A program made the translations under genes and the position numbers. DNA of 64,000 bases from contig NZ_CP095397.1 of the NCBI RefSeq assembly GCF_023008545.1, forward strand, positions 3,461,199-3,525,198. Direction: 5' to 3'. Below the pieces are notes generated by a model. It was given only the letters and a program-made list of their open reading frames with translations, ran no database searches and was not told the origin of the DNA. Origin of the DNA: Natribaculum luteum (lineage in GTDB: Archaea; Halobacteriota; Halobacteria; Halobacteriales; Natrialbaceae). How positions within the stretch are numbered: position 1 is the first letter of the stretch; every line of letters begins with the position of its first letter. Of this stretch, positions 22,851 through 39,011 are shown piece after piece.

Positions 22851-23315
22851 TTACGCCTTACTCGAGCGTTTCAGCGACAGCACGGTTCGATCGAACTCAC
22901 AGACGAGCGGTTCGTCCGGGTCGTTCACTTTGAAGACCTCGACGTGCATCGTGACGATGCCGCGCTCGCCGTCGCTAGTCTCGCGTTTGTCCGTCACCGT
23001 CGACTGAACCCGGATCGTGTCACCGTGAAAGACCGGCTTCGGGTGCTCGACGTCGTCGTACGAGAGGTTGGCGACGATGGTGCCGTCCGTCGTCTCGGGG
23101 ATGGAGATGCCGACCGCGAGCGACATCGTGTAGAGGCCGTTGACGAGGCGCTCGTCGAACTGCGTCTCGCCGGCGAACGCCGCGTCCAGGTGCAACGGCT
23201 GCTGGTTCATCGTCATGTCACAGAACCGCTGGTTGTCGCTCTCCGAGATCGTGCGGCGACGCTCGTGTTCGATCGTCTCGCCGACCTCGAACTCCTCGTA
23301 GTACAGCCCAGTCAT
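22851..23315 (-). CDS. MaoC-family enoyl-CoA hydratase
   Basis: This 154-residue hotdog-fold hydratase begins MTGLYYEEFEVGETIEHERRR. The (R)-specific hydratase-like segment SDNQRFCDMTMNQQPLHLD holds the Asp and His expected for catalysis, and the later FHGDTIRVQSTV is typical of MaoC. It is the last gene of the operon with acyl-CoA synthetase, acyl-CoA dehydrogenase and biotin-dependent carboxylase, so it probably hydrates a 2-enoyl-CoA or a carboxylated enoyl-CoA made by that operon. Confidence 0.87.
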   Translation of the reverse strand: MTGLYYEEFEVGETIEHERRRTISESDNQRFCDMTMNQQPLHLDAAFAGETQFDERLVNGLYTMSLAVGISIPETTDGTIVANLSYDDVEHPKPVFHGDTIRVQSTVTDKRETSDGERGIVTMHVEVFKVNDPDEPLVCEFDRTVLSLKRSSKA

Positions 23316-23363: not shown

Positions 23364-25103
23364 TCAGAGGATCGTTCCGTGTTTCTTCGACGGGAGGTCC
23401 TTCTCGACGGTCTCGTAGAACTCGAAGCGTGCCTCGAGTTCGTCCCGAAGCGAACTGGGCGGGACGATTTCGTCGATGACGACCTCGCTCGCCATCCGGT
23501 GGACGTCGATGTCCTCGCGGTACTCCTCGCGTAACTCCCGTTCGCGCTGCTCGCGTTCGTCCTCGTCGTCGATCTCCGCGAGCTTGTTCGCGTAGACGGC
23601 GTTGATCGCCGCCTCGGGGCCCATGATGGCTATCTCGCCGCTGGGGAGCCCGATCACACTCTCGGGGTCGTACGCCGGCCCCGACATCGCGTAGATGCCC
23701 GCGCCGTAGGCCTTCCGGACGACGACCGACTGTTTCGGAACCGTCGCACTCGAGGTGGCGTAGATCATCTTCTTGCCCTGCTCGAGAATGCCGTCTTTCT
23801 CGACCTGCGAACCGGCCATGAAGCCGGGCGTGTCACACAGGTACAGCAGCGGGATCTCGTAGGCGTCGCAGGTCCAGATGAACTCCGCGGCCTTCTCGGC
23901 GGCGTCGGGGAAGATCGCCCCGGCCCGCTGGTTGGGCTGGTTGGCGACGATGCCGATCGGGCGACCGTCGATCCGCGCGAACGCCGTGATGATCTCCGGA
24001 CCGTACTCGGGGCGCAACTCGAGGACGGAATCTGCGTCGACCACCCGCTCGATGAGGTCGAACATGTCGTAGCCGCGATTCGGTTCCTGGGGGACGACCG
24101 CGTCGATGCCCTCGGGAGACAGTCGCGGTGCCGTCCCGTCCGTCCGGGGCGGCGTCTCGTCTGCGTTGTCCGGCAGGTAGCCGACGAGTTTCGCCACGAG
24201 TTCGCGGGCGTGTTCTTCGTCCTCGGCGATCAGGTCCGCGCTGCCGGAGTGGCGAGCGTGGACGTCGGGACCGCCGAGGTCGTCCATGCTGATGTCCTCG
24301 CCGGTGACCATCTGGACCATCCGCGGGCTCGCGATGGCCATCGCGCTCATGTCCCGGACCATGACCGTGAAGTCGGCGAACACCGGGGTGTACGCCGCGC
24401 CGGCGATACACGGCCCGTAGAGCACGCAGATCTGGGGGACGCGACCGGAGAGCATCGAGTGGTTGTAGTAGTACTTCCCGATGCCCTCACGGTTGGCGAA
24501 GAAGCCGGTCTGCTGGTCGATCCGGCCGCCGGAGGAGTCCATCAGGTACAACACTGGCTTGCCGGTCTTCAGCGCTCGCTGTTGCATCCGCAGGAACTTC
24601 TCGACGCCTTTCCCGGCCATCGACCCCGCCTTGACGGTGAAGTCGTTGGCCATGAAGTGGACGTCGCGGCCCTCGAACTCGGCCGCACCCGTGAGCAGCC
24701 CGTCGGCCGGCAGTCTGTCGTCCGAATCGAAGTTCGCGAACTTGCCGTCCTCGAACAAAACGCCGTCCTCGCCGTTGAACCAGAGGTCGAGCCGATCGCG
24801 AACGAACAGCTTCCCCTGCTCGGAGAGGCGCTCTTTGTACTTCTCGGGGCCGCCCTCGAGGATGTCCTCGATCTCCTCGAGCAGCAGCTCCTCGCGTTCG
24901 GTCGGCTCGAGGTCGTCGACGGCTTCGCCGTCTGCTCGAGGGGTCGGTGCTCCGGTGCCGTTCGCGCTGGCCGACGCGCTCGCGAGCGGGTCGTCGTCGC
25001 CGCCCACGTAGAGGTCGACGTCGTCGCCGAAGTGGTCGGCGAGCGCCTTCGCGATCGCCCGCGCTTCACCTTCCGTCGTGGATTCGTCGATCCTGAGTCG
25101 CAT
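23364..25103 (-). CDS. acyl-CoA carboxylase, carboxyltransferase subunit with N-terminal extension
   Basis: This 579-residue biotin-dependent carboxyltransferase of the PccB/MccB/LiuB type carries both crotonase-like halves. It has the segments GPCIAGAAYTPVFADF, GGPDVHARHSG and, in the second half, CDTPGFMAGSQVEKDG. It moves CO2 from biotin to an acyl-CoA. About 60-90 N-terminal residues precede the usual core: MRLRIDESTTEGEARAIAKA followed by an Ala/Ser/Gly/Pro linker. That extension resembles the separate small PccX subunit of haloarchaeal propionyl-CoA carboxylase, so a fusion is possible. The next gene upstream encodes the biotin carboxylase, with a 2-base gap. Confidence 0.9.
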   Translation of the reverse strand: MRLRIDESTTEGEARAIAKALADHFGDDVDLYVGGDDDPLASASASANGTGAPTPRADGEAVDDLEPTEREELLLEEIEDILEGGPEKYKERLSEQGKLFVRDRLDLWFNGEDGVLFEDGKFANFDSDDRLPADGLLTGAAEFEGRDVHFMANDFTVKAGSMAGKGVEKFLRMQQRALKTGKPVLYLMDSSGGRIDQQTGFFANREGIGKYYYNHSMLSGRVPQICVLYGPCIAGAAYTPVFADFTVMVRDMSAMAIASPRMVQMVTGEDISMDDLGGPDVHARHSGSADLIAEDEEHARELVAKLVGYLPDNADETPPRTDGTAPRLSPEGIDAVVPQEPNRGYDMFDLIERVVDADSVLELRPEYGPEIITAFARIDGRPIGIVANQPNQRAGAIFPDAAEKAAEFIWTCDAYEIPLLYLCDTPGFMAGSQVEKDGILEQGKKMIYATSSATVPKQSVVVRKAYGAGIYAMSGPAYDPESVIGLPSGEIAIMGPEAAINAVYANKLAEIDDEDEREQRERELREEYREDIDVHRMASEVVIDEIVPPSSLRDELEARFEFYETVEKDLPSKKHGTIL

Positions 25104-25105: not shown

Positions 25106-26923
25106 TTACTCGAACACCACCAGCGGATCGCCCATGTCGACGGAGTCGCCCTCCGAGACCGGAACCTCGGCGACGGTGCCGCCCGCCGGCGCGACCACGT
25201 CGTTTTCCATCTTCATCGCTTCGAGGACGCAGACGACGTCGCCGCCTCCGACCTCGTCGCCGGGGGAGACGTTCACCGAGAGGACCGTCCCCTGCATCTC
25301 GGCCGTGACGGCGTCGCTCGCCGCGACCTGCGTGCCGCCGCCGTTCGAGGACGCCTCACCGCCGCCGTTTGGCCGCTCGGCGCTCGCGGCCGCTCGTGGG
25401 AGGCCGTCCTCGACGACCACCTCGTAGCGCCGGTCGTCGACCTCCACGACGAGTTCGTTCGTCGCGCGCTCGCCGTCGACCCCCCCGATCGCTTCGGGCG
25501 CACCCCAGCGGTCGACTGCCGCTTCCAGGTCTGCGGCGTCGACCTCGTGATCGAGGTACTTCGTCGTGTGGTCGCCAGCCCGGAAGACGTCGTCTTCGAG
25601 CATCAGCCTGTGGAACGGGATCGTCGTCTCCACGCCGGCGACGTCGAAGTGGGCGAGGGCTCGGGCGGAGCGCTCGAGACACCGCTCTCGCGTGGGTGCG
25701 CGGACGATCAGCTTCGCGATCATCGAGTCGTAGTCGCCCGCGATCTCGTCGCCCTGGGCGACGGCGTCGTCCAGGCGGACGCCGAGTCCGCCCGGCGGGT
25801 CGTACGCCTCGAGCGTGCCGGGCGTCGGGGCGAACTCCTCGGCTGGGTTCTCGGCGTTGATCCGGAACTCCATCGCGTGGCCCTCGATTTCCACGTCGGC
25901 CTGCGCTACGGGCAATTCCTCGTCGGCGGCGACGCGGATCTGCTGGCGAACGACGTCGATACCCGTGACCTCCTCGCTTACGGTGTGTTCGACCTGGATG
26001 CGTGTGTTCACCTCCATGAAGTAGAACTGTGGTTCGGCGGCTGCGCCGCCTTCCCCTCGTTGCGTCTCCGACGCAACGCTGTCCTCTACGAGAAATTCGA
26101 CCGTCCCCGCGTTCGTGTAACCGGCCTCGCGAACGCCCCGACGGGCCGCCTCGCCGATCTCCGCGCGGAGGTCGGCGTCGAGGGCCGGGCTCGGTGCCTC
26201 CTCGATGACCTTCTGGTGGCGACGCTGGAGCGAGCAGTCCCGTTCGCCCAGGTGCAAGACGTTGCCGTGGTTGTCGGCGAGAATCTGCACCTCGATGTGT
26301 TTCGGTTCCTCGAGGAACTTCTCGACGTAGACCGACTCGTTGTCGAAGTAGGCTTTCCCCTCGCGTTTCGCGCTCTCCAGGGCGTCTTCGACTTCTTCGT
26401 CACCACGGACGATCTTCATGCCACGGCCGCCGCCGCCGCCCTCGGCTTTGATCGCCAGCGGGTAGCCGTACTCCGCGCCGAGTTCGCGCACTTCGGCGGC
26501 CGACTCGACGGGTTCGGTCGTTCCGGGGACGACGGGGACGTCGGCCGCCTCCATGACACGGCGGGCTTTCGTCTTCTCGCCCAGCGCCTCCATCGCGTCG
26601 CTCGACGGACCGACCCAGGTGATTCCGTCGGCCTCCTCGACGCGGCGGGCGAACTCGGCGTTCTCCGCGAGGAAGCCGTACCCCGGGTGGACGGCATCTG
26701 CCCCGGCGCGTTCGGCCACCTCGAGGATCGCCTCCTGGTCGAGGTAGGAGTCGCTGGCGGGTGCGGGACCGACGTTGTACGCCTCGTCGGCGTACTCGAC
26801 GTGGCCGGCCGAGCGATCCGCGTCGCTGTAGACCGCGACCGTCTCGACGCCCAGCTCCTCGCAGGCCTGCATGACGCGGACGGCGATTTCGCCGCGGTTT
26901 GCGACCAGCAGTTTCTCGAACAT
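25106..26923 (-). CDS. acyl-CoA carboxylase, biotin carboxylase/BCCP subunit
   Basis: This 605-residue subunit has biotin carboxylase (residues 1 to about 450, [21 protein letters not shown]-grasp loop [13 protein letters not shown]) and a C-terminal biotinyl domain with the attachment lysine in EAMKMEND. It carboxylates biotin for the neighbouring carboxyltransferase. An Ala/Gly/Glu-rich insert of about 17 residues sits just before the conserved [14 protein letters not shown], where relatives have two or three residues; its DNA contains two perfect hairpins. The ATG at 26923 matches the family. It lies 2 bases from each neighbour in the operon. Confidence 0.93.
26036..26078. repeat. two perfect hairpins inserted in the biotin carboxylase coding sequence
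   Basis: GGCGGC-TGC-GCCGCC (26036-26050) and CGTTGCGTC-TCC-GACGCAACG (26058-26078) are perfect inverted repeats separated by 7 bases. They coincide with an extra peptide in a highly conserved part of the ATP-grasp domain and keep the frame. The GACGCAAC core also occurs in the palindromic element at 59351. Confidence 0.7.
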
Positions 26924-26925
26924 GG

Positions 26926-28092
26926 TCAGTAGGACTTGGGGAAGCCGAGCTGCTGGCTGATGTGGTTGTACGCCATCTGCTGGGAGACGGGCGCGAGGCG
27001 GGTGAGGTTGATCTCGCGCCACCAGCGTTCGACGTCGTACTCCTTCGCGTAGCCCCAGCCGCCGAAGGCCTGCATCGAATGTTTGACGGCCTCGATGCCG
27101 GCGGAGACGGCCGTCGCCTTCGCGACGTTCGTCTCGTAGCCACAGTCTTCGCCCTGGTCGTAGAGCCAGGCGGCCTTCTCGCGCATGAGCGCGGCCGTCT
27201 CCATCTTCGCGTAGGCTTTCGTGATGGGGAAGGAGACGCCCTGATGGGTGCCGATCGGCGCGCCGAAGACCTCGCGGTCGTTGGCGTACTCGATCGCCGC
27301 GTTCGCCGCGAGTTTCCCGATGCCGGTTCCGGCAGCGGCGAAGCCGATCCGCTCGGGATTGAGCATGTCCACGAGGACCCACCAGCCGTCGTCTTCCTCG
27401 CCGAGCAAGTTCTCCTCGGGGACCCGGACGTCCTCCAGGAAGACCTCACACGACTTCGAGTAGTTGATGGCGTGTTTGGGGATCGGCGAGACGTCGATGT
27501 TCGGGTCGTCCATGTCGACGATGAACAGGCTGATGCCGTCGGTGCCCCGATCGACGTCCTCGAGTGGCGTCGTCCGCGTGACGATGATCATGTTCTCGGC
27601 ACGGTCGGAGAACGTGATCCAGGCTTTCTGCCCGTTGAGGACGTACTCGTCGCCCTCTCTCTCGGCGGTGGTGGCGACGTTCAGCGTGTTCGTCCCGGCC
27701 TCGGGTTCGGTGATGCCGATCGAGAAGTTTCGCTTCCCGTTCGCGATGTCGGGCAGGTAGGTCTCTTTCTGCTCGTCGGTGCCGTACTCGCGGATGCCGA
27801 CGGCCGCCATGCCAGCGGTGAGCACCAGATACCAGGTGCCGGCCATGCCACAGCCCTCGGCACAGAGGGTCTCCATCGCCAGCCCCATCTCCTGCATGCC
27901 CATGTCAGCACCCTCGTACTCCTCGGGGATCAGCAGGCCGTGGAAGCCGGCCTCGGCGAGTTCGTCCCAGAACGCCTCGGAGAACTCCCCTTTCTCTTCT
28001 TTCTCGCGCCAGTGCTCCGGTCCGTACTCGGCGGCCACCTCTTCGGCCGTCGAGCGGATCAGTGATCGCTCCTGTGATGGTTCGAAATCCAT
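26926..28092 (-). CDS. acyl-CoA dehydrogenase
   Basis: This 388-residue FAD acyl-CoA dehydrogenase has the usual flavin and substrate segments: [20 protein letters not shown], a core around [31 protein letters not shown] and the C-terminal [20 protein letters not shown]. It introduces a 2,3-double bond into an acyl-CoA. In this operon the product would be the substrate for the biotin-dependent carboxylase or the MaoC hydratase. The operon order resembles isovalerate (Liu) and acyclic-terpenoid (Atu) pathways. The chain specificity cannot be read. Confidence 0.9.
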
Positions 28093-28108: not shown

Positions 28109-29788
28109 TCAGTCGTCCGCTTCGGCTTCTGCGTCGTCCTGGAGTTCCGTCCGGCGGATCTTCCCGGTGACGGTCTTGGGCAACTCCTCGCGGAACTCGA
28201 TCTCGCGAGGGTACTCGTGGGCCGAGAGTTCCTCTTTCACGTGGGTCTTGATGTCCTCCGCGAGGCCCTCGGAGGGGTCCGCCCGTTCGCTTGGCACGAC
28301 GTACGCCTTCACGATGTTGCCCCGCTCGCGGTGGGGTTTCGGGACGACGGCGGCCTCGGCGACGGCGTCGTGTTCACCCAGCGAACTCTCGACCTCGAAA
28401 GGTCCGATGCGGTATCCCGAGGAGATGATGACGTCGTCCGCCCGGCCCTCGAACCAGAAGTAGCCGTCGTCGTCTTTGTGCGCGAGGTCGCCAGAGAGGT
28501 ACCACTCGCCCCCGGGCCCGTCGACGAAGCAGTCCTGGGTCTGGTCCGGTTTCTCCCAGTACTCGGCGAAGAAACACGGGTAGTCCCCGCGCTGGGCGAT
28601 CTCGCCAGTCTCACCGGGCTCTACGGGATCGCCCGTCTGCGGGTCGACGACGTCGGCCTCGATTCCGGGGAGGGGCTTGCCCATCGAGCCGGGTCGGACC
28701 TCCATCGATGGATAGTTGTTGATGATCATATTCCCCGTTTCGGTCTGACCGTAGGTGTCGTGGATCGTCACGCCCAGCGTCTCCTCGCCCCACTCGACGA
28801 CGCCCGCCGAGAGCGGTTCGCCGATCGACAGCGCGTGGCGCAAGTCGAGGGAGGTCCCCTCGAGTACCTCCTCGTGTTCCCGGAGCATCCGGTAGGCGGT
28901 CGGCACCGAGAACAGGACGCTGATCGGGAATCGGTCGAGGAGGTCGGCCCAGGTTTCGGGATCGAACTCGCCCTGATACGTGAACAGCGCGGTGCCCCAG
29001 AACCAGGCGCCGAGCGTGTTGATCGGCCCGGTCAGCCAGCCGAGGTCGCCGGTCGACCAGTAGCAGTCGCCCTCCCGGAGGTCGGCGGCGTACTTCTGGG
29101 TGGCAGCGACGCCGGTGACCCAGCGGTGCTTGTGAAGGACGCCCTTGGCCAGCCCGGTCGTCCCGCTGGTGTAGTACAGCAGGGCGTCGTCCTCGCCGCC
29201 GGTCGAAGCGGGTTCGTACTCGCGGCTCGCGGTTTCGAGTTCGCCGTAGTAGCTGACGTCGCCGCGCCGGATACCCGTCCCGTCGTCGCTGACGACGATG
29301 ACGTGCTCGACGGAGGGTGCGTCCTCGAGTGCCGTCGCGACGGTGTCGCGGTTGTCGGCGGTGGTGACGACCGCCGTCGCGTCGCAGTCCGACAGGCGAT
29401 AGGAGATGCCGTCCGGTCCGAACCGCTCGTTGATGCCGCCGAAGACCGCGCCGCGCTTGAGGGTCCCCACGAGCGCCACGTAGTGTTCGGGAATCCGCGG
29501 CATGTACGAGAAGACCCGATCGCCCTGCTCGATGCCCAGGTCCTCGAGGACGTTGGCAAACCGGCTCGTCTCCTCGGCCAGCTCCCAGAAGGTCATCGTC
29601 GTCAGCTCGCCGTCCTCGTCGACCTGATAGAGCGCGACCTTCTCTTTGTTTTCGGCGTGACGATCGCAGACCTCGTGTGCGATGTTCAGCTCCTCCGGTG
29701 CGTTCCCGTCCGCGTCGGCGTAGATGTCCGTCCACGAGAACGACTCACGCTCTCGCTCGTAGTCGGACATGTTGTGTTTCGGTGGCAT
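28109..29788 (-). CDS. AMP-forming acyl-CoA synthetase
   Basis: This 559-residue acetyl/acyl-CoA synthetase-family enzyme has the P-loop-like LLYYTSGTTGLAKGV, the TYGQTETGNMI adenylation motif, the hinge GRADDVIISSGYRIGPFE and the catalytic lysine in KTVTGKIRR. It activates a short or branched acid for the downstream dehydrogenase and carboxylase. The ATG at 29788 is favoured over a second ATG at 29770, because GTTATTAC on the minus strand lies 28 bases upstream, suiting a leaderless start. The protein resembles medium-chain acyl-CoA synthetases more than acetate enzymes. Confidence 0.9.
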   Translation of the reverse strand: MPPKHNMSDYERERESFSWTDIYADADGNAPEELNIAHEVCDRHAENKEKVALYQVDEDGELTTMTFWELAEETSRFANVLEDLGIEQGDRVFSYMPRIPEHYVALVGTLKRGAVFGGINERFGPDGISYRLSDCDATAVVTTADNRDTVATALEDAPSVEHVIVVSDDGTGIRRGDVSYYGELETASREYEPASTGGEDDALLYYTSGTTGLAKGVLHKHRWVTGVAATQKYAADLREGDCYWSTGDLGWLTGPINTLGAWFWGTALFTYQGEFDPETWADLLDRFPISVLFSVPTAYRMLREHEEVLEGTSLDLRHALSIGEPLSAGVVEWGEETLGVTIHDTYGQTETGNMIINNYPSMEVRPGSMGKPLPGIEADVVDPQTGDPVEPGETGEIAQRGDYPCFFAEYWEKPDQTQDCFVDGPGGEWYLSGDLAHKDDDGYFWFEGRADDVIISSGYRIGPFEVESSLGEHDAVAEAAVVPKPHRERGNIVKAYVVPSERADPSEGLAEDIKTHVKEELSAHEYPREIEFREELPKTVTGKIRRTELQDDAEAEADD

Positions 29789-29944: not shown

Positions 29945-31345
29945 TTACGTCAGGTCGTCGCCCTCGAGGTCGTTCTCGAAGCCGAGGTCGGCCCACGATT
30001 CGCAGACGGCGTCTCTGATCTCGGGCGGGTACGAGTCGGTGACGGAGACGCGGGGGGCGATGTACTCGTCGTCCCACCGGGGGTCCCACGTGGCGTCGAC
30101 GTAGAGGCGAGCGCCGGTGTCGCCCTCGCTGTGGTAGGTCGGCATGCGAGCCGACGGCGCGTTGGGTTCGCTGAACAGCCAGTCGCGCGACGGGTGGGCT
30201 TTGACCCAGATGTCGCCGAGCACCCGCCCGAAGTTTCGCGGACTCGTCTCCCCATCGACGACGACGACCTTGTCGAAGCAGTCCGAGAGCGAAAACAGGA
30301 AGTTCGCCAGCTGCCACTCGAAACCGGCGTAGAGGGTTTCGGTCGCGACGAAGCAGATGCCGAGCCGTCCCTCGACCGGCAAGAGCAGCCACTCGACGGG
30401 CGAGACGCCCCAGTAGCTGTTGACGCGGTCGAAAAGCGTCGTCGCCGTGGCCAGCGTCACGAGCAGGAGGTCGTCGGACAGCGGGACGCCGAGTGGCGTA
30501 AACGGGACGACGGCGTCGTCGCGAGCGAACACGTCGTCCACCTCGAGTGTGAGCGTCGTCCCGTCGACGAGTCGCTCCCAGAACTCCCGCTTTTCCGAGC
30601 GGGTTTCGGGTTGCTGGTCGGCGACGGTCGTCTCGAGGACGACCTCGGCGGAACTGGGGACGACCCCGCCGGCCGTCGGAACGACGGGCACGGCGGCCCC
30701 GACGCCGCGGTCCTCGATCGGCGTCGAGAGCCGGTCGGTGACCGCGAGCAGGTACGTCGCCGCCAGCGCCTCCGACGGGACGCCGAGCGCGACCGAGACG
30801 GCGTCGCCCTGCTCGAGTTGGTCCGTGATCGCGTCGGGGACGCGAGCGCGAAGCGTCCGGTCGTCGATCACCGTCCCGTGGATCGGTGTCCAGTAGGAGC
30901 CTTCGTCGGCACCGACCGAGAGCACGCCGAGCGTAAATCGCGGCCAGGTCTCGTCCGGCGGCGTCGGGAGTTCGAGGTCGCGCACGTTCAGGTCGGTGGT
31001 CGACGCCGCACGCGCGACGTAGGTGACGTCGCGCTCGTCGAGCCGTCTCCCGAGCGCGAGCAGCGCCTCGAGGACGTCGACGTACGCCGGGTCGCGATCG
31101 ACGCCCAGGCCAATGCCGAGTCGCGTCCACGGGTAGCGGCGTCGGCGTTGTAGCTGGTCGACGCCGCCGTAGATGCCGCTGGCGAGTCCGAGCGCCGAGC
31201 CGTCGGTCGTGAACCGCAACGCCGGCCCGTTGGCTCGAAGCGCCTCCGCGGCGACGACCTGCGGCGACGGCGACTCGGGTCGCTCGAGCGACTCGAGGTC
31301 GTCGGTCTTCCGGAGGAAGCCGAGGTGGTTGCGAAACGCCGTCAT
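29945..31345 (-). CDS. UbiD-like protein lacking the catalytic motif
   Basis: This 466-residue protein aligns loosely with UbiD decarboxylases along its length. It has a GPALRF start region, a strand near LGVLSVGADEGSYWTP, and a C-terminal KVVVVDGETSPRNFGRVLGD followed by HPSRDWLF as in UbiD. Where active UbiDs carry the E..R..EGPFGD loop it has PETRSEKREFW (246-256), and the Asn/Arg flavin motif is not seen. It is therefore probably a non-catalytic partner of the UbiD encoded immediately upstream (ATGA overlap). Confidence 0.72.
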   Translation of the reverse strand: MTAFRNHLGFLRKTDDLESLERPESPSPQVVAAEALRANGPALRFTTDGSALGLASGIYGGVDQLQRRRRYPWTRLGIGLGVDRDPAYVDVLEALLALGRRLDERDVTYVARAASTTDLNVRDLELPTPPDETWPRFTLGVLSVGADEGSYWTPIHGTVIDDRTLRARVPDAITDQLEQGDAVSVALGVPSEALAATYLLAVTDRLSTPIEDRGVGAAVPVVPTAGGVVPSSAEVVLETTVADQQPETRSEKREFWERLVDGTTLTLEVDDVFARDDAVVPFTPLGVPLSDDLLLVTLATATTLFDRVNSYWGVSPVEWLLLPVEGRLGICFVATETLYAGFEWQLANFLFSLSDCFDKVVVVDGETSPRNFGRVLGDIWVKAHPSRDWLFSEPNAPSARMPTYHSEGDTGARLYVDATWDPRWDDEYIAPRVSVTDSYPPEIRDAVCESWADLGFENDLEGDDLT

Positions 31346-32853
31346 CGATCTCCTCCGGTGTCGTGTTCGAAGATGGTCTCGTCGACTCCCGCCTCGACGA
31401 GCAGGTCGCGGGCCCGTTCGCGCGCCGCTCGATCGCCGATCGTCTGGACGGGACGCGAGCCGTCGGCCAGCGCGTCGACGTACGCCTTCGCCGTCTTCGA
31501 CTTCGACGTGCCGACCGTCGCGCTGCCTTTCTCGTCCGGTGTCTGGTAGATGTTGAGCGGCACCTTCGGCATCCGCTCGACGCCGAACTGGTGGAAGTCG
31601 CGGTCGGGATCGGCGTGCAACGCGATCGCCTCGAGGGCGGCACGGGGATCGAGCGGGTTCACGTCCGCGTCGACGAACACGAAGAAGTCGATGTGGAGCA
31701 TCCCCCAGGTCGTGAAGATGAAGTTCGCGAGTTCGTGTAGCGTTCCGGGGTAGGACCGCTCGATCGCGATAACCCAGACGGTCCGGGACGTAAAGTCCCA
31801 CGGCACCGCCATCTCGACGTCGAACCCGGCGGCCCGGAGGCCGAGCGTGGCGTCCGGCCCGCTCGCCGCGGTCTGGAACGTACTCGAGGAGTTGCGGCTG
31901 TAGCCGACGCCCGACCCCTCGACGCAAAACGGCAGGTACGGCGCTCGCCGGTGGGTGATCGCGTCGACCTCGAGGACCGGCATCGACCGCCGCGGGCCGT
32001 TCATGTAGCCGAAGTAGTCGCCGAACGGCCCTTCGTCGAGCCGTTCGTTCGGGAGGACCCGCCCCTCGACGACTACCTCCGCCGACGCCGGGACGTGGAG
32101 GTCGTTCGTCTCGCACTCGACGAGTTCGACCGGCGCATCCTGCAGTCCGCCCGCGAAGGCCGCCTCGCTCCGACCGACCGGGATCCACATCCGCGAGGCG
32201 GCCTCGACGGCCGGTCCCGCACCGATCGCGAGCGCCACTGGCATCGGTTCGTCGCGGCGTTCGTACTCGTAGTAGTAGAGGTTCGGCACCTGCTCGCCGG
32301 CCAGAAAGAGGACGCTCGCCTGCGAGGCGGCGTGGATCATCGCGCGGTGGTGTGACCAGTTCTCCCAGTCGCCGTCCGGATCCGGCGCGACGAGCGTCGC
32401 GAGGTTGGCGTACCGCCCGCCGTCGCCCTGGTGGATGTACGGCCAGGGAAACTCGAGCAAGCTGGCCGCGTCGCCCGTCCGGACGACCTCCTTGCACGGG
32501 GCCGCCGACGCCTCGACGACGGTCGGTTCGTGCGAAGAACGGAGCCGATCGATCACCGCCTCGTAGTAGGCCGGCCCGGACAGCCCCGCCTCGAGGCCGA
32601 GCGCTCGAGCGAACCGATCCCAGGGACGGTGTCGCGGTCCGCGGTAGGGATCGCCGACGAGGCGCGCGCCGTCGATCGCTGACTCGATCCGCTCGAAGAC
32701 GGGAATCCGGTCGTCGAACTCGTTTGCCAGCATCGTGATCGCACTGGCCTCGAGGTCCCAGGAGATTTCGTCGGTGATGGAGTTCGTCTCGTCTCCCTCC
32801 TCGAGGACGTCGAGAAATTCGCGAAACGTCCGGGCGGCCACGCGCTCACTCAC
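31342..32853 (-). CDS. UbiD-family prenylated-FMN decarboxylase
   Basis: This 503-residue UbiD-family enzyme performs reversible decarboxylation of an aromatic or alpha,beta-unsaturated acid with prenylated FMN. Cofactor- and acid-base residues are conserved: N165 and R170 in NWSHHRAM, E230 in GRSEAAFAGGL, and E270 and E274 in PNERLDEGPFGDYFGYM. Start GTG 32853 overlaps the upstream small gene by 8 bases, and the 3' end overlaps the UbiD-like gene by 4, giving a tightly coupled three-gene unit. No UbiX prenyltransferase gene is in the window. Substrate unknown; the aromatic-acid setting suggests an aryl carboxylate. Confidence 0.87.
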   Translation of the reverse strand: MSERVAARTFREFLDVLEEGDETNSITDEISWDLEASAITMLANEFDDRIPVFERIESAIDGARLVGDPYRGPRHRPWDRFARALGLEAGLSGPAYYEAVIDRLRSSHEPTVVEASAAPCKEVVRTGDAASLLEFPWPYIHQGDGGRYANLATLVAPDPDGDWENWSHHRAMIHAASQASVLFLAGEQVPNLYYYEYERRDEPMPVALAIGAGPAVEAASRMWIPVGRSEAAFAGGLQDAPVELVECETNDLHVPASAEVVVEGRVLPNERLDEGPFGDYFGYMNGPRRSMPVLEVDAITHRRAPYLPFCVEGSGVGYSRNSSSTFQTAASGPDATLGLRAAGFDVEMAVPWDFTSRTVWVIAIERSYPGTLHELANFIFTTWGMLHIDFFVFVDADVNPLDPRAALEAIALHADPDRDFHQFGVERMPKVPLNIYQTPDEKGSATVGTSKSKTAKAYVDALADGSRPVQTIGDRAARERARDLLVEAGVDETIFEHDTGGDR

Positions 32854-33322
32854 GCTCTAACGCCTCGCGTAACGGATCGCTCTCGTACTCGGTTCGCAAC
32901 TCGTCGTACGCCTCGAGCAGCGACGGATGGGCATCGGCCAGCCGTTCGAACATGAGCTCGCGAGCGGCTGCCGACGTCGACTCGTAGTGGTCCGTTTCGA
33001 CGAGATACCGGAGCAACACCGCCAGATCGTCCGAGCGCGTGTTGATGACGTTCGACCCCTCCTGCTGTTCGCGGACGATGCGCCGGAGTCGGTCCTCGTC
33101 GACGGCGTCGTCGACGAGTTCGACGTACCACTGCTCGGCCGTGTTCTCGTGTGGCCCCCTGACGACCGACAGCGGCTGTGGATCGTCGAGACGCGACGGC
33201 TCTTTCGCGATGCGCGCTCGCGTGTGGAAAATCTCTTTCGTCTCCGCGTCCCGGATCTGGAGCACCGTCTCACCCTCGCCGTCGTCGGGAACGTGCTCTT
33301 CGGCAGTGATGTACTTCGACAT
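32846..33322 (-). CDS. small acidic protein of unknown function, first gene of the UbiD operon
   Basis: I do not recognise this 158-residue soluble protein. It has a beta-rich N-terminal half (about 1-75, MSKYITAEEHVPDDGEGETV, QIRDAETKEIFHTRARIA) and a helical C-terminal half from about 80 (VDEDRLRRIVREQQEGSNVI). No signal peptide, membrane segment or cysteine pair is seen. Its stop lies within the UbiD gene start (8-base overlap), so it is probably made in fixed ratio with UbiD and could be a third subunit or assembly factor. That is inference from gene order. Confidence 0.75.
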   Translation of the reverse strand: MSKYITAEEHVPDDGEGETVLQIRDAETKEIFHTRARIAKEPSRLDDPQPLSVVRGPHENTAEQWYVELVDDAVDEDRLRRIVREQQEGSNVINTRSDDLAVLLRYLVETDHYESTSAAARELMFERLADAHPSLLEAYDELRTEYESDPLREALERE

Positions 33323-33583: not shown

Positions 33584-33988
33584 TCAGTTCTCGATCGACG
33601 ACCAGTCGTCGTCTCGTTGCCCGTACTTGTCCTCGAACTCCTGGATGAGCTGGCCCATCTTGGCGTACCAGTCGTTGAGCATCCGCTGCATGTCGTCTGC
33701 GACCTGTTTGGGGTCCGTCGGGTGGTAGACGTGGTAGTAGCCGCCCTGGTCGTAGTTGATCTGTTCTTTCTGGATGAAGCCCGTCTGGAGCAGTCGCTGA
33801 ATCGAGCGGTAGGCCGTCGATCGTTCGCGATCGACCCGATCTGCCACCTCGTCGATCGTCAACGGTTCCTCGCTCTCGACGAGCGTCCGGAAGCACTCCT
33901 TGTCGAGTCGTTTGAGCCCGTGGAGACACTCCAGCAAGCCCTCACACACCATGTCCTGCTGGAGTTGCTCGGCCATCGAGTTCGCCAT
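33584..33988 (-). CDS. TrmB-like winged-helix regulator
   Basis: This 134-residue DNA-binding protein has a winged helix at about 30-90 (IDEVADRVDRERSTAYRSIQ, then LLQTGFIQKEQINYDQGGYY) and a C-terminal helix (MQRMLNDWYAKMGQLIQEFE) suited to dimerisation. Small one-domain TrmB-like proteins of this type sit next to sulfur-transfer genes in haloarchaea. Here it follows the TauE/SafE gene on the same strand by 97 bases with its own TATA (CTCTTTTAAC) about 31 bases before the ATG. Start ATG 33988 is assigned because upstream codons read as non-coding. It is a candidate regulator for the sulfur island. Confidence 0.85.
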   Translation of the reverse strand: MANSMAEQLQQDMVCEGLLECLHGLKRLDKECFRTLVESEEPLTIDEVADRVDRERSTAYRSIQRLLQTGFIQKEQINYDQGGYYHVYHPTDPKQVADDMQRMLNDWYAKMGQLIQEFEDKYGQRDDDWSSIEN

Positions 33989-34013
33989 ATCGTACCGCTC
34001 AGTAGGTGCTACT

Positions 34014-34046
34014 GCGTTAAAAGAGTTTTGCGAGTGTTGTGCAATT
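34014..34046 (-). promoter_or_regulatory. promoter of the TrmB-like regulator with candidate operator
   Basis: Read on the minus strand, ATTGCACAACACTCGCAAAA is followed at once by CTCTTTTAAC, the probable TATA box. The ATTGCAC...AAAAC pattern resembles the sites at 39012-39039 and 42022-42048, suggesting autoregulation. Confidence 0.4.
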
Positions 34047-34085
34047 CTACGGCGAGAGAATACTCGGCGACCGCCGACGGCTCGT

Positions 34086-35126
34086 CTAGTCTGCGGCGAC
34101 CGCGGTCGTTTCGGGCTCCTGGCGGAGGGCGACGACACTCGAGTAGACGACGGCGCCGCTGACGAGGAACGCCGACAGGAGGATCAGCGCGAAGCTGACC
34201 GTGTTCAGGATGTCCATCCCGATGTAGTCGCCGATCTGGCGGAAGGCGACCGCGACGGAGCCACCGAGCAGCATCAGGCCGAAGTAGACCTTGATCTCGC
34301 CTTCGTCGACGATGCCGGTCGCGGCCGAGCCGACACGGGCACCCAGCGCGCTGCCAGCGAGCAGGGGCGCGACGATCGAGAGGTCGACGCCGCCGCCCTG
34401 GGCGTAGAGGAACGAGCCCAGGCCGCCGGAGAAGACGATCTCGAACAGGTCGGTCCCGACGGCGATCGGCACCGGCACCCCGATGAGGTAGAACATCGCG
34501 GGCATCCGGATGAAGCCGCCACCGACGCCGAGGAAGCCCGATAGCAGCCCGGTCGCGAACGCAACTGCGAGCACCATCCACAGCGAGACCTGGATGCCCC
34601 CGCGGATGGTCATCATCGGCGGGACGTGGTACGACTGGATTTTCTTGGCGATGTCGGGGATCGCGTCGGGGTCGATCTCCTGGTCGGCGGCCTCGTGGTG
34701 GCCACCGTCGCTGTCGTCGCTGCCGTCACTCTTGAGGGCGTTGTAGGTGACGAAGACACCGACACCACCGAGCAACAGCACGTACGTGACGCCGATGACG
34801 CCCGACGCCAGCCCGATCGACTCGAGGTGGAGAACCATCTCCTTGCCGACCTCGATGCCGGCAGTAGTGCCGACGATCATCAGGCCGCCGAGTTTGTAGT
34901 CGACCTGGCCGAGGTCGTGGTGTTTCAGCGTCGCGATGACGGCCGTCCCGAAGACGAACGCCATCCCGCTCCCGACCGCGACGCTGGCGGGATACCCCAT
35001 GACCAGCAACGCGGGCGTCACGAGGAACGATCCCCCCATCCCGAAGAAGCCAAACAGCACGCCGACCATCAGGCCGAAGCCGACGAACAGGACCAACGTG
35101 GTTAGTGCGATTCCAAGTATTTCCAT
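34086..35126 (-). CDS. TauE/SafE-family sulfite/sulfur-anion exporter
   Basis: This 346-residue polytopic membrane protein has two TauE/SafE repeats, each starting with a Gly-rich segment (GVLFGFFGMGGSFLVTPALL and LLSGFLGVGGGFIRMPAMFY), and about eight membrane spans. A cytoplasmic-type acidic loop of about 60 residues (SDGSDDSDGGHHEAADQEID) separates the halves. Family members export sulfite, sulfonates or other sulfur anions. It is preceded on the same strand by a 49-residue membrane protein (3-base gap) and followed by the TrmB-like regulator. Removal of sulfite made by the persulfide dioxygenase is the likely job. Confidence 0.88.
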   Translation of the reverse strand: MEILGIALTTLVLFVGFGLMVGVLFGFFGMGGSFLVTPALLVMGYPASVAVGSGMAFVFGTAVIATLKHHDLGQVDYKLGGLMIVGTTAGIEVGKEMVLHLESIGLASGVIGVTYVLLLGGVGVFVTYNALKSDGSDDSDGGHHEAADQEIDPDAIPDIAKKIQSYHVPPMMTIRGGIQVSLWMVLAVAFATGLLSGFLGVGGGFIRMPAMFYLIGVPVPIAVGTDLFEIVFSGGLGSFLYAQGGGVDLSIVAPLLAGSALGARVGSAATGIVDEGEIKVYFGLMLLGGSVAVAFRQIGDYIGMDILNTVSFALILLSAFLVSGAVVYSSVVALRQEPETTAVAAD

Positions 35127-35129
35127 GTG

Positions 35130-35279
35130 TCAGGCGTTCTGGATTGCGTCGATCAGCGGTTTCGTCACGGCACTCGAGATCGCGCCGTACCCCACGTAGA
35201 GGACGATCGCCTCGAGCAGGACGGCACCCACGAGGACCGCCGCCTGGGCCGTGGGGGAGAGCGATGCGACGTCTATCAT
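35130..35279 (-). CDS. 49-residue single-span membrane protein upstream of TauE/SafE
   Basis: This small protein, MIDVASLSPTAQAAVLVGAV continuing into LLEAIVLYVGYGAISSAVTK and ending DAIQNA, has one predicted membrane span (about 12-36). It resembles a haloarchaeal small-protein family (DUF7512-like) that occurs next to TauE/SafE genes. The stop lies 3 bases before the exporter start, so the two are almost certainly co-translated. A role as an accessory subunit of the exporter is inferred. Confidence 0.8.
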   Translation of the reverse strand: MIDVASLSPTAQAAVLVGAVLLEAIVLYVGYGAISSAVTKPLIDAIQNA

Positions 35280-35350
35280 TGGTTCCGATCACCGTTGCGG
35301 TGCAGTTGTGTGCGGATCATACTTTTCTACTCAGTACCTCCTAATCCACA

Positions 35351-35385
35351 GGGCATAATAACGCTTTTGGGAACATCGTACAATA
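35351..35385 (-). promoter_or_regulatory. promoter region of the TauE/SafE operon
   Basis: On the minus strand TATTGTACGATGTTCCCAAA is followed by GCGTTATTATGCCC, a possible TATA. It weakly resembles the ATTGCAC-type motif of the other sulfur promoters. The distance to the first gene (about 75 bases) implies a short leader. Confidence 0.3.
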
Positions 35386-35536
35386 CTATTTTGGGAGTCA
35401 ACGAATAACCTATAGGCAACACACGCATCACGGACGAGTCTCGGCCGCGACGCGACCGTTCTCAGAATGCGGGCGAAGTCGGGTCAGAATCGAGTCCGCC
35501 GATCGCTCGCGCGCGTCGCCCAGATCGACTCGGCCG

Positions 35537-36712
35537 TCAGAACGCTGCCGTTACGGCAACCGAGCCGTAGCCGATGGCGAACGCGACGGCGAACGACAGG
35601 ACCCACGCGACGCCCGTGACGAGGAGTTTGCGCCTGCTGACCCCACCGCCGCCACCGACGGCGAGTCCGCTCCCGACGATCGCGCTGACGATGATCTCGT
35701 TGAACGAGACCGGAACGCCGAGTAACACCGCCGTCTGGGCGATGAGAAACGAGGGCACGAGCGTTGCGATCGATCGACGGGGGCCGAGCGAGGAGTAGTC
35801 CTGTGCGAGCGACTTGATCATCCGCGGCGCTCCCGTCCAGGAGCCGACGAGAATGCCGACACCGCCACCAAAGAGAACTGCGAACGGCGAGACGGCCGGC
35901 AGTTCGTCGAGCAGCGGGAACAGCGGGCCGACGGCGAGCCCGACCTGGCTGCCGCCGGCGGAGAACGCCACGAGTGCACCCAGTGCGAGGAGAAATCGCC
36001 GGAGTCCGCCAGCCACGTCGCGGCCGATATCCCACCGGAGCGCGAGCCACACTGCCAGGCCAAATCCGAGCGAGACGACAATCGTCGCCATCGTCCCGTC
36101 GACCGGGAGGCGAGCACCGAGCGTCGTCGCGAACGTCCCGCCGTCGGGACCGAGAAACGCGAACTCGAGGTTCGCGAGGACGACACCGACGAGAGCACCC
36201 AGGATCGGGACGCTTACCCGCTCCGGAACGTCGTCTCGCGGGAGGACGCTCGCGATGCCGTAGGCGATCCCGCCCCCGACGAACGGCGTGAGGACCCACA
36301 TCGCGCCAATCTGTTGGTACTTCGCCCACGCGGGCGCGCCACCCAGCGCGAGTCCGACGCCGATGATCGCGCCTGTCACCGTAAACGCGGTTGCGATCGG
36401 GTACCCGGTGTAGATTCCGACCGCCATGAGTCCCGCGCCGACCGTGAGCGCGAGGATGACGCCGCTGGGCGGGAGGCTGATGCCGTGGACGAGTCCTCGT
36501 CCGACGGCCTCCGAGACGTTCGCTCCCTGCGTGACCGCACCGACGAAGCCGAAGATGCCGACGACGAACGCCGCGCGCATCGTCGAGATGGCGTTCGCAC
36601 CGACGGCTGGCGCGAACGGCGTCGCGCCACTCGAGCCGGCGCCGATGACCCACGCCATGAACAGACTCGCGACGGCGGCGGCGAGAAACAGCAGTATTGT
36701 CGTAACTTCCAT
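35537..36712 (-). CDS. PiT-family permease, possibly CysP-type sulfate/thiosulfate
   Basis: This 391-residue membrane protein has the duplicated PiT domain: GAGSSGATPFAPAVGANAIS near the N-terminus and a second copy around GSWTGAPRMIKSLAQDYSSL and SFNEIIVSAIVGSG. PiT proteins carry phosphate, and the CysP branch carries sulfate. Here the gene is the last of a minus-strand run with persulfide dioxygenase and two YeeE/YedE genes (33-base gap), so sulfate or thiosulfate transport is the better guess. Sequence alone does not settle the anion. Confidence 0.85.
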   Translation of the reverse strand: MEVTTILLFLAAAVASLFMAWVIGAGSSGATPFAPAVGANAISTMRAAFVVGIFGFVGAVTQGANVSEAVGRGLVHGISLPPSGVILALTVGAGLMAVGIYTGYPIATAFTVTGAIIGVGLALGGAPAWAKYQQIGAMWVLTPFVGGGIAYGIASVLPRDDVPERVSVPILGALVGVVLANLEFAFLGPDGGTFATTLGARLPVDGTMATIVVSLGFGLAVWLALRWDIGRDVAGGLRRFLLALGALVAFSAGGSQVGLAVGPLFPLLDELPAVSPFAVLFGGGVGILVGSWTGAPRMIKSLAQDYSSLGPRRSIATLVPSFLIAQTAVLLGVPVSFNEIIVSAIVGSGLAVGGGGGVSRRKLLVTGVAWVLSFAVAFAIGYGSVAVTAAF

Positions 36713-36745
36713 CGTAGAGAAGTGAACGTTACAGCGTCGCGGTGG

Positions 36746-37204
36746 TTAGTCGGCCCCGGCACCGGCCGTCTCGGTCGCCGCCTGACGGCTGCGCCACAGG
36801 CCCTGGACGTACGCACCGGCGAACATGCCGGCGAGCGCCCACAGGATGGTGACGTTACCGATGCCGATGCTGGCGTAGGCCGCGCCCGGACAGATGCCGG
36901 ACAGTCCCCAGCCGACGCCGAAGATCGAACCGCCGATCAGGACGTTGCGATCGAACGATTTCAGCCGGCGTTCGAACTGGTCGCCGGTCAGCGGTGCCCG
37001 ACCGAGCAGCCGCGGGGCGAGGAAGAACGTCACGCCCGTCACGATCGCGGCGCCGAACATCACGAACACCAGTCCGAAGTCCTCGAACTGGAGGAAGTTC
37101 AGCACCACTTCGGGGCGGGCCATGTGGCTGAATCCGAGGCCGAAGCCGAAGATCAGGCCGCCGACCAGGATCAGCGGCATGAAGAGGGGATGACGGTCCG
37201 ACAT
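36746..37204 (-). CDS. YeeE/YedE (TsuA-like) sulfur-transport half-protein, C-terminal half
   Basis: This 152-residue membrane protein of the YeeE/YedE family has about four spans. The conserved cysteine is C105 in GWGLSGICPGAAYA, the position that relays thiosulfate sulfur in the bacterial transporter TsuA. It is half the size of bacterial YeeE; the other half is the adjacent gene, whose stop overlaps this start by one base (TAATG). Together they presumably make one thiosulfate importer. Confidence 0.88.
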   Translation of the reverse strand: MSDRHPLFMPLILVGGLIFGFGLGFSHMARPEVVLNFLQFEDFGLVFVMFGAAIVTGVTFFLAPRLLGRAPLTGDQFERRLKSFDRNVLIGGSIFGVGWGLSGICPGAAYASIGIGNVTILWALAGMFAGAYVQGLWRSRQAATETAGAGAD

Positions 37205-37761
37205 TACGGACTCACCCCCAGTGCGGCGACGATCTGTGCGGTCAGGATAGCCACGATCATGAACGTGATCACGCCCGTGATCGAGGTCTTCGACGCGGAG
37301 CCGACGCCACAGACGCCGTGTCCGGACGTACAGCCCTTGCCGATACGCGTCCCGATCCCGACGAAGAAGCCGCCGACGAGGAGTCGCCACGGCTGGACGT
37401 CCGTCGACCAGAGCGTCAGGCCACCGACCTCGTACAGTTCGCCGGTCGTCCCGGGCTGGTAGAGCGAACTCGTAATCATCCCGGACTGGAACGTCGCCGC
37501 GAACGCCAGCGCACCCAGGATAATGCCGAGCGTGAACACGAGCCGCCAGTCCCGGGAGGAGACGTACTGCTGGAATCTCGACTGGCCGGAGACGTACGAC
37601 AGCGTCGACTCGAGGAACGTACTCGCACCGGCGGGGATGCCGGTCCCGAGGTAGATCACGACCGTCCCGAGACCGACGAAGAGCCCGCCGATGGCGTACC
37701 GACTGATCCCGTTCGGGAACAGTTCGGCGGCCAGCTGTAGTGGTACTGGGTCAGTTACCAT
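37204..37761 (-). CDS. YeeE/YedE (TsuA-like) sulfur-transport half-protein, N-terminal half
   Basis: This 185-residue membrane protein has about four to five spans and the signature GKGCTSGHGVCGVG with C144 and C151, matching the first cysteine motif of YeeE/TsuA. It probably imports thiosulfate, passing sulfur to cytoplasmic carriers such as TusA. It lies 11 bases downstream of the persulfide dioxygenase gene and overlaps the second half-gene by one base. Confidence 0.88.
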   Translation of the reverse strand: MVTDPVPLQLAAELFPNGISRYAIGGLFVGLGTVVIYLGTGIPAGASTFLESTLSYVSGQSRFQQYVSSRDWRLVFTLGIILGALAFAATFQSGMITSSLYQPGTTGELYEVGGLTLWSTDVQPWRLLVGGFFVGIGTRIGKGCTSGHGVCGVGSASKTSITGVITFMIVAILTAQIVAALGVSP

Positions 37762-37772
37762 TGATAGTGAGA

Positions 37773-38969
37773 TTAGTCACCAGCGAGCGATTCCTGGCTG
37801 GCAGCACAGTTGTTCGGGCCGAGCTCGAGAGAGAAGGCTTCGTCGTCGTCGTCGACGACGTTCTGGCCGAGGTTGGTGGGGATGATCGTCTCGTAGTTGG
37901 CCGGGCGGGGCGGCATGTCCGAGAGGATCAGCTCGACGAAGTCGTCTTCGTCCATCGTGAGCGCGTCCATCTCGTCCTCGAGCTGGCCGATCGGAGCGGT
38001 GTAGGTGCCGTCGTCGGCGGGCTCGGCCGCGTCGCTGAAGTGGGCGCCACCGATCAGGGTGTCGTCAGGGAGCGTGAGCACGCGCTCCTGGAGCGACTCG
38101 TAGAGCTGGCGTGCGGCGTCGGGCGCACCGTCGTCGCCCTCCTCGAGGTCGGGGCGGGCGACGCTCTCGACGAACAGACCGTCGCCGGTCGCCAGCAGGC
38201 TGTCACCGATCAGATAGGAGGTCATCCCGGAGGTGTGGCCGGGCGTGTAGACGGTCTCGATCGTGACGTCGCCGACCTGGAACTCGTCGCCGTCTTCGGC
38301 CAGCGTCACGTCGTCGGCGTAGGTGACGCCACGATCGACCGACGCCTCGGGGATGACGCCCTCGACGTCTTCGTCGTCGAGCGCGCGAACGCCCGAGAGG
38401 TGGTCGGCGTGGATGTGCGTGTCGATTGCGTACGTGAGATCGACGCCGAGGTCGTCAGCGTCCTCGAGGTAGCGGTCGGTGAAGGCCCGGAGGGGATCGA
38501 TCACGGCGGCCTCGTCGCCGTCGTAGACGAAATAGCCCAGACAGCCACTCGAGGGGCGCTGGTACTGGACGAGCGTGCCGGGGCCGTCGTAGTCGGCGAC
38601 CTCGACGGCCTCGTAGATCGCGGCCCAGCCGTTCATCCCGTCTTCGAGGTGGACGGCGTCGTAACCGCGCTCTTTCAGCGTCGCCGCGACGTACTCGCTC
38701 GAGCCGCCTTTCGCACAGAGGACGACGATCTCGCGGTCGTCGGGGATCTGTGCGAGGACGTCGTCGTCGATCTCGTCCTCGAGAAACTCGAAGTAGGGGA
38801 CGTTGATCGACTCGACGGTCTCGCCCTCGATGTGCCACTCCTCGTAGTCACTTTCCATGCGAACGTCGAGGAGCGTCACGTCTTCACCCGCGTCGATTCG
38901 GCTCTTGAGCGTCTCCGGATCGACCGTGTCGACCGGAACGTCTGGGGTCGGAAGGTCCATGTCGCTCAT
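37773..38969 (-). CDS. rhodanese-MBL fusion, persulfide dioxygenase-like
   Basis: This 398-residue protein has an N-terminal rhodanese domain (1-120, active-site C85 in CAKGGSS) and a metallo-beta-lactamase domain of the ETHE1/Blh persulfide dioxygenase type (125 to about 320, HIHADH at 185-190, further metal ligands in VYTPGHTSGM and IGGAHF). It would oxidise protein or low-molecular-weight persulfide to sulfite and/or move sulfane sulfur. It heads the minus-strand operon with YeeE halves and the PiT-type permease. The order rhodanese-MBL is the reverse of many bacterial fusions. Confidence 0.9.
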   Translation of the reverse strand: MSDMDLPTPDVPVDTVDPETLKSRIDAGEDVTLLDVRMESDYEEWHIEGETVESINVPYFEFLEDEIDDDVLAQIPDDREIVVLCAKGGSSEYVAATLKERGYDAVHLEDGMNGWAAIYEAVEVADYDGPGTLVQYQRPSSGCLGYFVYDGDEAAVIDPLRAFTDRYLEDADDLGVDLTYAIDTHIHADHLSGVRALDDEDVEGVIPEASVDRGVTYADDVTLAEDGDEFQVGDVTIETVYTPGHTSGMTSYLIGDSLLATGDGLFVESVARPDLEEGDDGAPDAARQLYESLQERVLTLPDDTLIGGAHFSDAAEPADDGTYTAPIGQLEDEMDALTMDEDDFVELILSDMPPRPANYETIIPTNLGQNVVDDDDEAFSLELGPNNCAASQESLAGD

Positions 38970-39011
38970 ATTGTGCAGTCGGTTCTACCGGACGCACCCA
39001 CATAAGGGTTT

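Follow-up and report, generated by a model that had tools for sequence, protein, structure and literature searches.

A conserved haloarchaeal UbiD and pseudo-UbiD gene unit in genomes without a recognisable UbiX

A three-gene unit in a 64,000-nucleotide stretch of the Natribaculum luteum genome (contig NZ_CP095397.1, positions 3,461,199 to 3,525,198; hereafter the window) encodes a small protein (P0001), an active-looking member of the UbiD decarboxylase family (P0002) and a UbiD-like protein devoid of the catalytic set (P0003, hereafter the pseudo-UbiD). Our analysis establishes the gene order and co-conservation of this trio, the pseudo-UbiD's loss of the catalytic set, the grouping of both UbiD subunits with a pair from a second archaeal class and the lack of any recognisable gene for UbiX, the flavin prenyltransferase, in the genomes that carry it. 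From these results we infer the formation of a complex, the direction of the reaction, the class of substrate, the cofactor and the role of the small protein. With belief and doubt evenly balanced, we propose that the trio is a heteromeric UbiD-family (de)carboxylase operating in coenzyme A (CoA)-dependent acid catabolism without UbiX, on unprenylated flavin mononucleotide (FMN) or on a cofactor made by another route. The firmer finding, compared with this three-subunit reading, is that of a UbiD lineage that excludes UbiX.

The exclusion emerged from a survey of 292 genomes from class Halobacteria. The UbiD family PF01977 is present in 89 of these genomes, which resolve with zero overlap into 66 genomes harboring the trio and 23 harboring UbiX (TIGR00421 above its cut-off, 177-227 bits); UbiX was detected in all 23 UbiD-bearing genomes without the trio and in none of the 66 with it. 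A 24th genome, G229, presented a weak TIGR00421 match in a 393-amino acid frame. Two genera, g27 and g40, each include both trio genomes and UbiX genomes. P0002 is the sole PF01977 match in the genome of the window, and the search for UbiX suggested in an earlier note on this sequence came back empty, both there and in the further trio genomes that were covered. The Flavoprotein family, which comprises both UbiX and CoaBC, yielded exactly one match per trio genome in all 66, in frames of at least 386 amino acids, and a single match in each of 15 named trio genomes, seven of which repeat members of the 66 (identical match places). The Flavoprotein gene of the window's genome was identified as CoaBC by a curated model (342 bits, cut-off 219.7), and the remaining ones were assigned CoaBC length by frame length alone. 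UbiD enzymes are associated with a single, highly conserved UbiX in the available text of a 2024 account (PMC10865409). Since no UbiX was found, the trio UbiD cannot be assumed to be an enzyme of prenylated FMN (prFMN).

An ordinary UbiD/UbiX system, with a UbiX that is present but was missed or with prFMN taken up from outside, is very improbable. In its favour, the absence of UbiX rests on profile searches, and some of the genomes are in many contigs. The same searches, however, detected UbiX in the 23 other Halobacteria and in 56 of 59 genomes of a control class, that of genome G493, where 54 of the 56 UbiD-bearing genomes have it; the other two, G535 and G536, show 76% completeness and 9% contamination, respectively. 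Furthermore, the searches recovered a Flavoprotein gene of CoaBC length from each trio genome, and several trio genomes are assembled in 1-5 contigs. Uptake is disfavoured because prFMN is converted to an inactive radical on exposure to oxygen, as stated in the accessible part of one source (PMC10865409).

The three genes of the trio are conserved as a unit. Relatives of P0003 were found in 66 of the 292 genomes, spanning 21 genera, and relatives of P0001 in an identical set of genomes (set equality checked); in 64 of the 66 the trio genes are neighbours. In the exceptional genome G195 they are split between the neighbourhood of position 410 and the region past position 138,958 of a single contig, probably its two ends. 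The order small gene, UbiD, pseudo-UbiD was observed in all 35 loci read in detail, although the small gene of locus L113 is degenerate. Open reading frame analysis of the window bore out the earlier note on the three genes, their strand, their order and their overlaps of 8 nucleotides (small gene and UbiD) and 4 nucleotides (UbiD and pseudo-UbiD). The latter overlap measures 4 nucleotides in 33 of the 35 loci, and the former has this length in 21 of 35, with starts chosen by alignment. Given the constant order (35/35), the 4-nucleotide overlap (33/35) and the adjacency (64/66), the arrangement is no product of chance. The co-occurrence across haloarchaea that the earlier note had asked about was observed in these genomes, and a lack of joint conservation, which it had named as evidence to the contrary, was looked for and not found. 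A search of plasmid proteins returned 17 records, all haloarchaeal. The distance matrices of the three proteins are correlated (r 0.84-0.87), at values that species history alone could give.

P0002 scores above cut-off for PF01977 (215 bits), UbiD_C (59.5 bits) and UbiD_N (33.6 bits). The UbiD catalytic motif is given as R-Xn-E-X4-(E/D) in the available part of PMC5818171, where the importance of the Arg, the Glu and the acid is shown in Fdc1 and a Glu-to-Asp change at the acid keeps activity. P0002 fits this motif through R170, E274 and D279, and these three residues are invariant in the 35 trio UbiDs, as are H169, E187, Q188 and E230. The earlier note had listed N165, R170, E230, E270 and E274 for its active-looking UbiD; R170, E230 and E274 are present in all 35 relatives, while Glu at position 270 is found in just 21 and Asn at 165 in one, and the acid-base network comprises R170, E274 and D279.

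The cofactor side of the site is altered. Position 165 is occupied by Asp in 18 trio UbiDs, Arg in nine, Ser in five and Asn, Thr or His in one each, the sole Asn belonging to L033, from the same genus as the window. In the Fdc1-type structure 7nf0, Asn stands at the place of 165 and His at that of 188; we take the Asn, His and Glu of Fdc1 to be the Mn2+ ligands involved in prFMN binding, with both places among them. At these ligand places the trio UbiDs keep the Glu in 35/35 and the Asn in 1/35, and replace His by Gln in 35/35; HudA also lacks the Asn. By comparison, 17 of 18 UbiDs from UbiX-bearing Halobacteria have Asn at the 165-equivalent. These 18 were drawn from 16 of the 23 UbiX-bearing genomes, with L114, L116, L126 and L130 omitted (no BLAST match of 60 bits to P0002), together with G145, G257, G268 and G272. 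With Asp at this site in some orthologues and Arg in others, it appears unlikely that the same metal-phosphate group is held there. As a separate observation, the only PF01977 match of the UbiX-bearing genome G160 (L129, 2131-3495, plus strand) carries Gly where the Asn would stand and Lys instead of the Glu metal ligand, and may be another altered UbiD.

Two explanations other than a change of cofactor bear on this pattern. The first holds that prFMN is used but is made by an unrelated flavin prenyltransferase, be it the small protein, the pseudo-UbiD or the product of an unlinked gene, among which CoaBC, with a CoaC half of the same family as UbiX, is one candidate. The invariance of the residues around the acid-base network is what unchanged chemistry would lead one to expect, the same clade includes UbiX-bearing relatives, and the small protein and pseudo-UbiD always accompany the UbiD in the 66 genomes. 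Family-model searches, however, revealed no resemblance of any trio protein to a prenyltransferase, CoaBC-like genes are also present, as far as seen, in genomes with UbiX or without UbiD (Haloferax volcanii), and the Asn at 165 is replaced in 34 of 35 sequences; we regard this explanation as unlikely, though worth keeping in view. The second holds that decarboxylase function has been lost and that, within CoA-ester metabolism, the UbiD pair now serves a different reaction or acts in binding or as a scaffold. The missing UbiX, the altered cofactor-side residues, the trio-specific invariant residues such as H169, E187, Q188 and W223 and the variety of catabolic neighbourhoods are all in line with such a loss. 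Against it, R170, E274 and D279, a set important in Fdc1 according to the available text (PMC5818171), are invariant in 35/35, and we consider it improbable.

The second UbiD-like protein retains the fold and has lost the active site. P0003 matches UbiD_C above cut-off (45.3 bits, cut-off 24.2) and PF01977 below it (13 bits), and is 26% identical to P0002 over 261 columns (BLASTP). A structural model built from a 31-sequence alignment (mean predicted local distance difference test score, pLDDT, 78.9, with residues 374-439 poor) has as its top Foldseek match a solved UbiD, 4ip2 (E 7.6e-22), and a second structure comparison aligned model residues 1-389 with HmfF (Z 34.7, root-mean-square deviation (rmsd) 2.9, 355 aligned). 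Together, the UbiD_C score and the structure comparison of the model place the UbiD fold in P0003. Two alignments of the 35 pseudo-UbiDs agree that no sequence has an acidic residue at the D279 position or Glu at the E230 position; Arg is found at the place of R170 in 18, and Glu at the place of E274 in six by one alignment and four by the other. Of the four key residues (R170, E230, E274 and D279), two at most occur in any of 36 sequences, P0003 included. The three alignments (A1-A3) comprise the window plus 30 of the 35 loci, and over these 31 pseudo-UbiD sequences 54 columns are invariant; the pseudo-UbiD is therefore a maintained protein and not a decaying copy. The earlier note's reading of a UbiD-like partner without the catalytic set is supported, and the conserved catalytic residues that it had named as counter-evidence were looked for in vain.

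Relatives of the pair were found in a second class of the phylum, probably the Archaeoglobi. At two loci, L146 (genome G493) and L148 (genome G465), an active UbiD adjoins a second UbiD in which G or N occupies the D279 position, the second gene of L148 being cut by the contig end. On a maximum-likelihood tree of 76 sequences, obtained after thinning the trio rows and dropping P0003, the trio UbiDs group with the active UbiDs of L146 and L148 (bootstrap 100) and the pseudo-UbiDs with their second UbiDs (bootstrap 97). Judged from this phylogeny, the UbiD pair is either older than its haloarchaeal form or was transferred as a pair. The two loci resemble the trio in combining an active and a second UbiD that each group with the corresponding haloarchaeal subunit, and in a short neighbouring gene possibly related to P0001; they differ from it in that their genomes have UbiX and their active subunit keeps Asn and has Glu at 279. 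Unlike P0001, the product of the short gene, 112 or 118 amino acids long, has no room for a second domain of ribbon-helix-helix size.

The small protein has no Pfam match, and no Pfam ribbon-helix-helix family scored above cut-off. Its model (pLDDT 81.1, predicted template modelling score 0.48) presents five strands followed by helices from residue 76, and can be divided into a beta-rich N-terminal part (residues 1-72) and a ribbon-helix-helix-like C-terminal part (about 75-148). In a profile search of PDB sequences all five matches were to ParD, CopG/Arc/MetJ or NikR, at weak E-values of 0.47-1.1. Foldseek returned no match at E <= 0.001, with SegB in the first row (probability 0.97), and a second comparison also aligned SegB, at Z 6.8 (rmsd 3.0, 73 aligned) and 6.4, with the next rows at 2.6, where a Z below 8 possibly reflects a mere common arrangement. 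In the model, then, the C-terminal half resembles a ribbon-helix-helix domain; this fits an operon regulator, and P0001 may be one instead of a subunit of the enzyme. One homologue bears the RefSeq name 'ubiD operon protein'. The three-subunit enzyme of the earlier note consequently stands in part: the dead partner is tightly coupled to the UbiD and co-conserved with it, but the small protein, with its ribbon-helix-helix-like half, is not established as a subunit. With default filters P0001 did not match the short gene of L146. With filters off, that gene came first of 2887 open reading frames with the N-terminal profile (E 0.29) and second with the full-length one (E 0.13); the L148 short gene came seventh (E 15). 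Profile-profile comparison with the L146 gene gave E 9.8e-5 at a probability of 58. These matches are suggestive only of an N-terminal part common to P0001 and the short gene beside the L146 pair, and hence older. Separately, genome G213 encodes a full-length small protein with a GPHE motif (L193, 3978-4523, minus strand) that stands alone, about 0.9 Mb from a UbiD pair without a small gene, which suggests that the small protein is able to act in trans.

In the heteromeric mechanism that we propose, the active UbiD would pair with the pseudo-UbiD, which keeps the fold and probably stands in for one protomer of the UbiD dimer or shapes the active site, while the small partner, with its ribbon-helix-helix-like domain in haloarchaea, would probably be the sensor or regulator of the operon. 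The Arg-Glu-Asp acid-base network of the active subunit would serve to carboxylate or decarboxylate an unsaturated or aromatic carbon, and the substrate acid would be handled as a CoA ester by the products of neighbouring genes. As the cells have no recognisable UbiX, the cofactor would not be prFMN from the known pathway, and in the simplest version it would be unprenylated FMN or another flavin. More broadly, we tentatively suggest, with doubt somewhat outweighing belief, that a haloarchaeal UbiD lineage has lost UbiX and dispensed with prFMN, and that an active/pseudo heteromer, its acid-base network intact, carries out CO2 chemistry on FMN or another cofactor in a three-gene unit borne by chromosomes and plasmids.

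Several points weigh against this proposal. What was found is that trio genomes have no recognisable UbiX sequence, which says nothing on the presence of prFMN, and the Fisher test on the 66/23 split (p 8.5e-22) ignores the kinship of the genomes. HudA (4ip2) carries Ser at the place of N165 and still requires prFMN, Mn2+ and K+, according to the available text (PMC7976604). L146 and L148, in UbiX-bearing genomes, also have Gln at 188; Q188 is therefore no marker of prFMN loss, and we rejected it as proof. The two-subunit enzyme of D. anilini still required Mn2+, and a ubiX-like gene is present in that organism's genome, as reported in the accessible part of its description (PMC7500099). The small gene of G213 does not adjoin the main UbiD pair: the better-conserved pair has no adjacent small gene, and a degenerate one lies beside the second pair. 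Finally, the adjoining pathways vary by lineage.

Neighbourhoods of the 35 loci fall largely into two contexts (Table 1). The first, which is that of the window and of 14/35 loci (defined by a carboxyltransferase cluster), has genes for a CoA ligase, acyl-CoA dehydrogenase, biotin-dependent carboxylase and MaoC protein, which in the window follow the trio on the same strand. The second (17/35, defined by a metallo-hydrolase cluster) has the metallo-hydrolase after the trio, with hydratases and acyl-CoA dehydrogenases near; a PaaC-like gene is found in 12/35 loci and a PaaA-like gene in 8/35, as part of this second context. In L096 and L113 the trio has as neighbours genes for a CoA ligase and for a periplasmic binding protein, which in L113 belongs to PF13458. 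A single pathway read from the neighbourhood was rejected, as contexts differ between loci; their common theme, judged by gene content, appears to be the catabolism of acids as CoA esters. Isobutene/3-methylcrotonate and styrene/cinnamate were considered as hypothetical substrates.

Table 1. Positions in the window of the trio, of selected residues and domains, and of neighbouring genes
Feature	Positions	Strand	Remarks
Small protein P0001	32846..33322	minus	Open reading frame, 158 amino acids, ATG start
P0002, active-looking UbiD	31342..32853	minus	503 amino acids, GTG start
P0003, pseudo-UbiD	29945..31345	minus	466 amino acids, ATG start
P0002 R170 codon	32344..32346	minus	Arg in 35/35 trio UbiDs
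P0002 E274 codon	32032..32034	minus	Glu in 35/35 trio UbiDs
P0002 D279 codon	32017..32019	minus	Place of catalytic acid, Fdc1 Glu282; Asp in 35/35
P0001 ribbon-helix-helix-like part	32879..33100	minus	Model residues 75-148, aligned to SegB
AMP-forming acyl-CoA synthetase	28109..29788	minus	Downstream of trio; NCBIfam acetate-CoA ligase and MbcS models, below cut-offs
Acyl-CoA dehydrogenase family	26926..28092	minus	Context
Biotin carboxylase with carrier domain	25106..26929	minus	Context
Carboxyltransferase subunit, biotin-dependent acyl-CoA carboxylase	23364..25103	minus	Context
MaoC-type hydratase	22851..23315	minus	PF01575, 88 bits

Other genes near the trio deserve mention in their own right. 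On plasmid pHTUR01 of Haloterrigena turkmenica (L164, 17717-20929), a PaaA/PaaB/PaaC-like multicomponent oxygenase set lies near the trio with a 2Fe-2S protein and an acyl-CoA synthetase, and Halalkalicoccus jeotgali has the same arrangement; this set may represent an aerobic aromatic-CoA pathway in haloarchaea. Near the trio of a Haladaptatus locus (L044, 10302-12889, minus strand), an HMG-CoA-synthase-like protein adjoins a thiolase-family protein, and the pair could make or break a carbon bond in that pathway. An archaea-specific SMC-related protein (NF045487) is encoded on the minus strand of the window (17310-19292) and of L105 (10995-12776), at 692 and 472 bits, above cut-off; relatives lie near the trio in five of the 35 loci (L096, L098, L100, L104 and L105), and the gene beside the SMC-related protein, which has no NCBIfam match, is a possible partner. 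Upstream of the trio, window positions 33584-40042 hold a small Lrs14/Sta1-like regulator (below cut-off) and, beyond it, genes that by eye only resemble sulfur transport and transfer functions (membrane exporters, rhodanese and MBL domains, TusA-like and DsrE-like proteins).

A UbiD lineage widespread in archaea and exclusive of UbiX, in one class and within two genera, provides a direct test of the need for prFMN, and either answer would be new: UbiD chemistry without prFMN, or prFMN from another enzyme. Haloferax volcanii, which in the control sets has a PF02441 match and none for TIGR00421 or PF01977, would offer a clean host for the cofactor test, as it has no UbiD or UbiX model match. 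The conserved pseudo-subunit is, in turn, a natural system in which to study the role of the second protomer in UbiD enzymes.

In the literature searched, with most subscription journals outside it, we found no paper on this haloarchaeal trio and no system combining a dead UbiD, a ribbon-helix-helix-like small protein and the absence of UbiX. Assignment of the trio to phenylphosphate carboxylase or to the Vdc/Lpd decarboxylases was rejected, as scores fall far below curated cut-offs: P0002 reached 153.3 bits with the phenylphosphate carboxylase alpha model (cut-off 564.6) and 96 with the beta model (468.95), P0003 42.4 and 16.5, and P0002 162.4 with the VdcC model (cut-off 650), with no UbiX-type B subunit found in the genome. 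Small UbiD partners are known, and the chaperone LpdD is described as Pba3/4-like in the available text (PMC10865409). As far as that text goes, Vdc/Lpd systems share with the trio a UbiD and a small accessory protein (D), whereas they have a UbiX (B) and no second UbiD. The Fdc1/HudA type includes the solved sequences closest to P0002, the fold of P0003 and the Arg-Glu-(Glu/Asp) network, but its solved members are prFMN enzymes, while no UbiX is found in the trio genome, and Glu-Gln stands in place of the Gln-His pair. The naphthalene carboxylase clusters also gather several UbiD-like genes, with a CoA ligase later in the pathway; they differ in coming from anaerobic bacteria, with four UbiD-like genes in N47 and prFMN proposed, in the accessible part of the source (PMC12016498). 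Further parallels are with phenylphosphate carboxylase, in which two UbiD-like subunits act jointly, and with the phenylphosphoamidate carboxylase of D. anilini, in which both UbiD-like subunits are required together with Mn2+, K+ and FMN, the last stated to be sufficient (PMC7500099, available text). Unlike those of the trio, these subunits are not described there as dead, and they occur with other small subunits and, in D. anilini, a ubiX-like gene; like the trio, both systems bring two UbiD-like subunits together, and D. anilini supplies a precedent for FMN.

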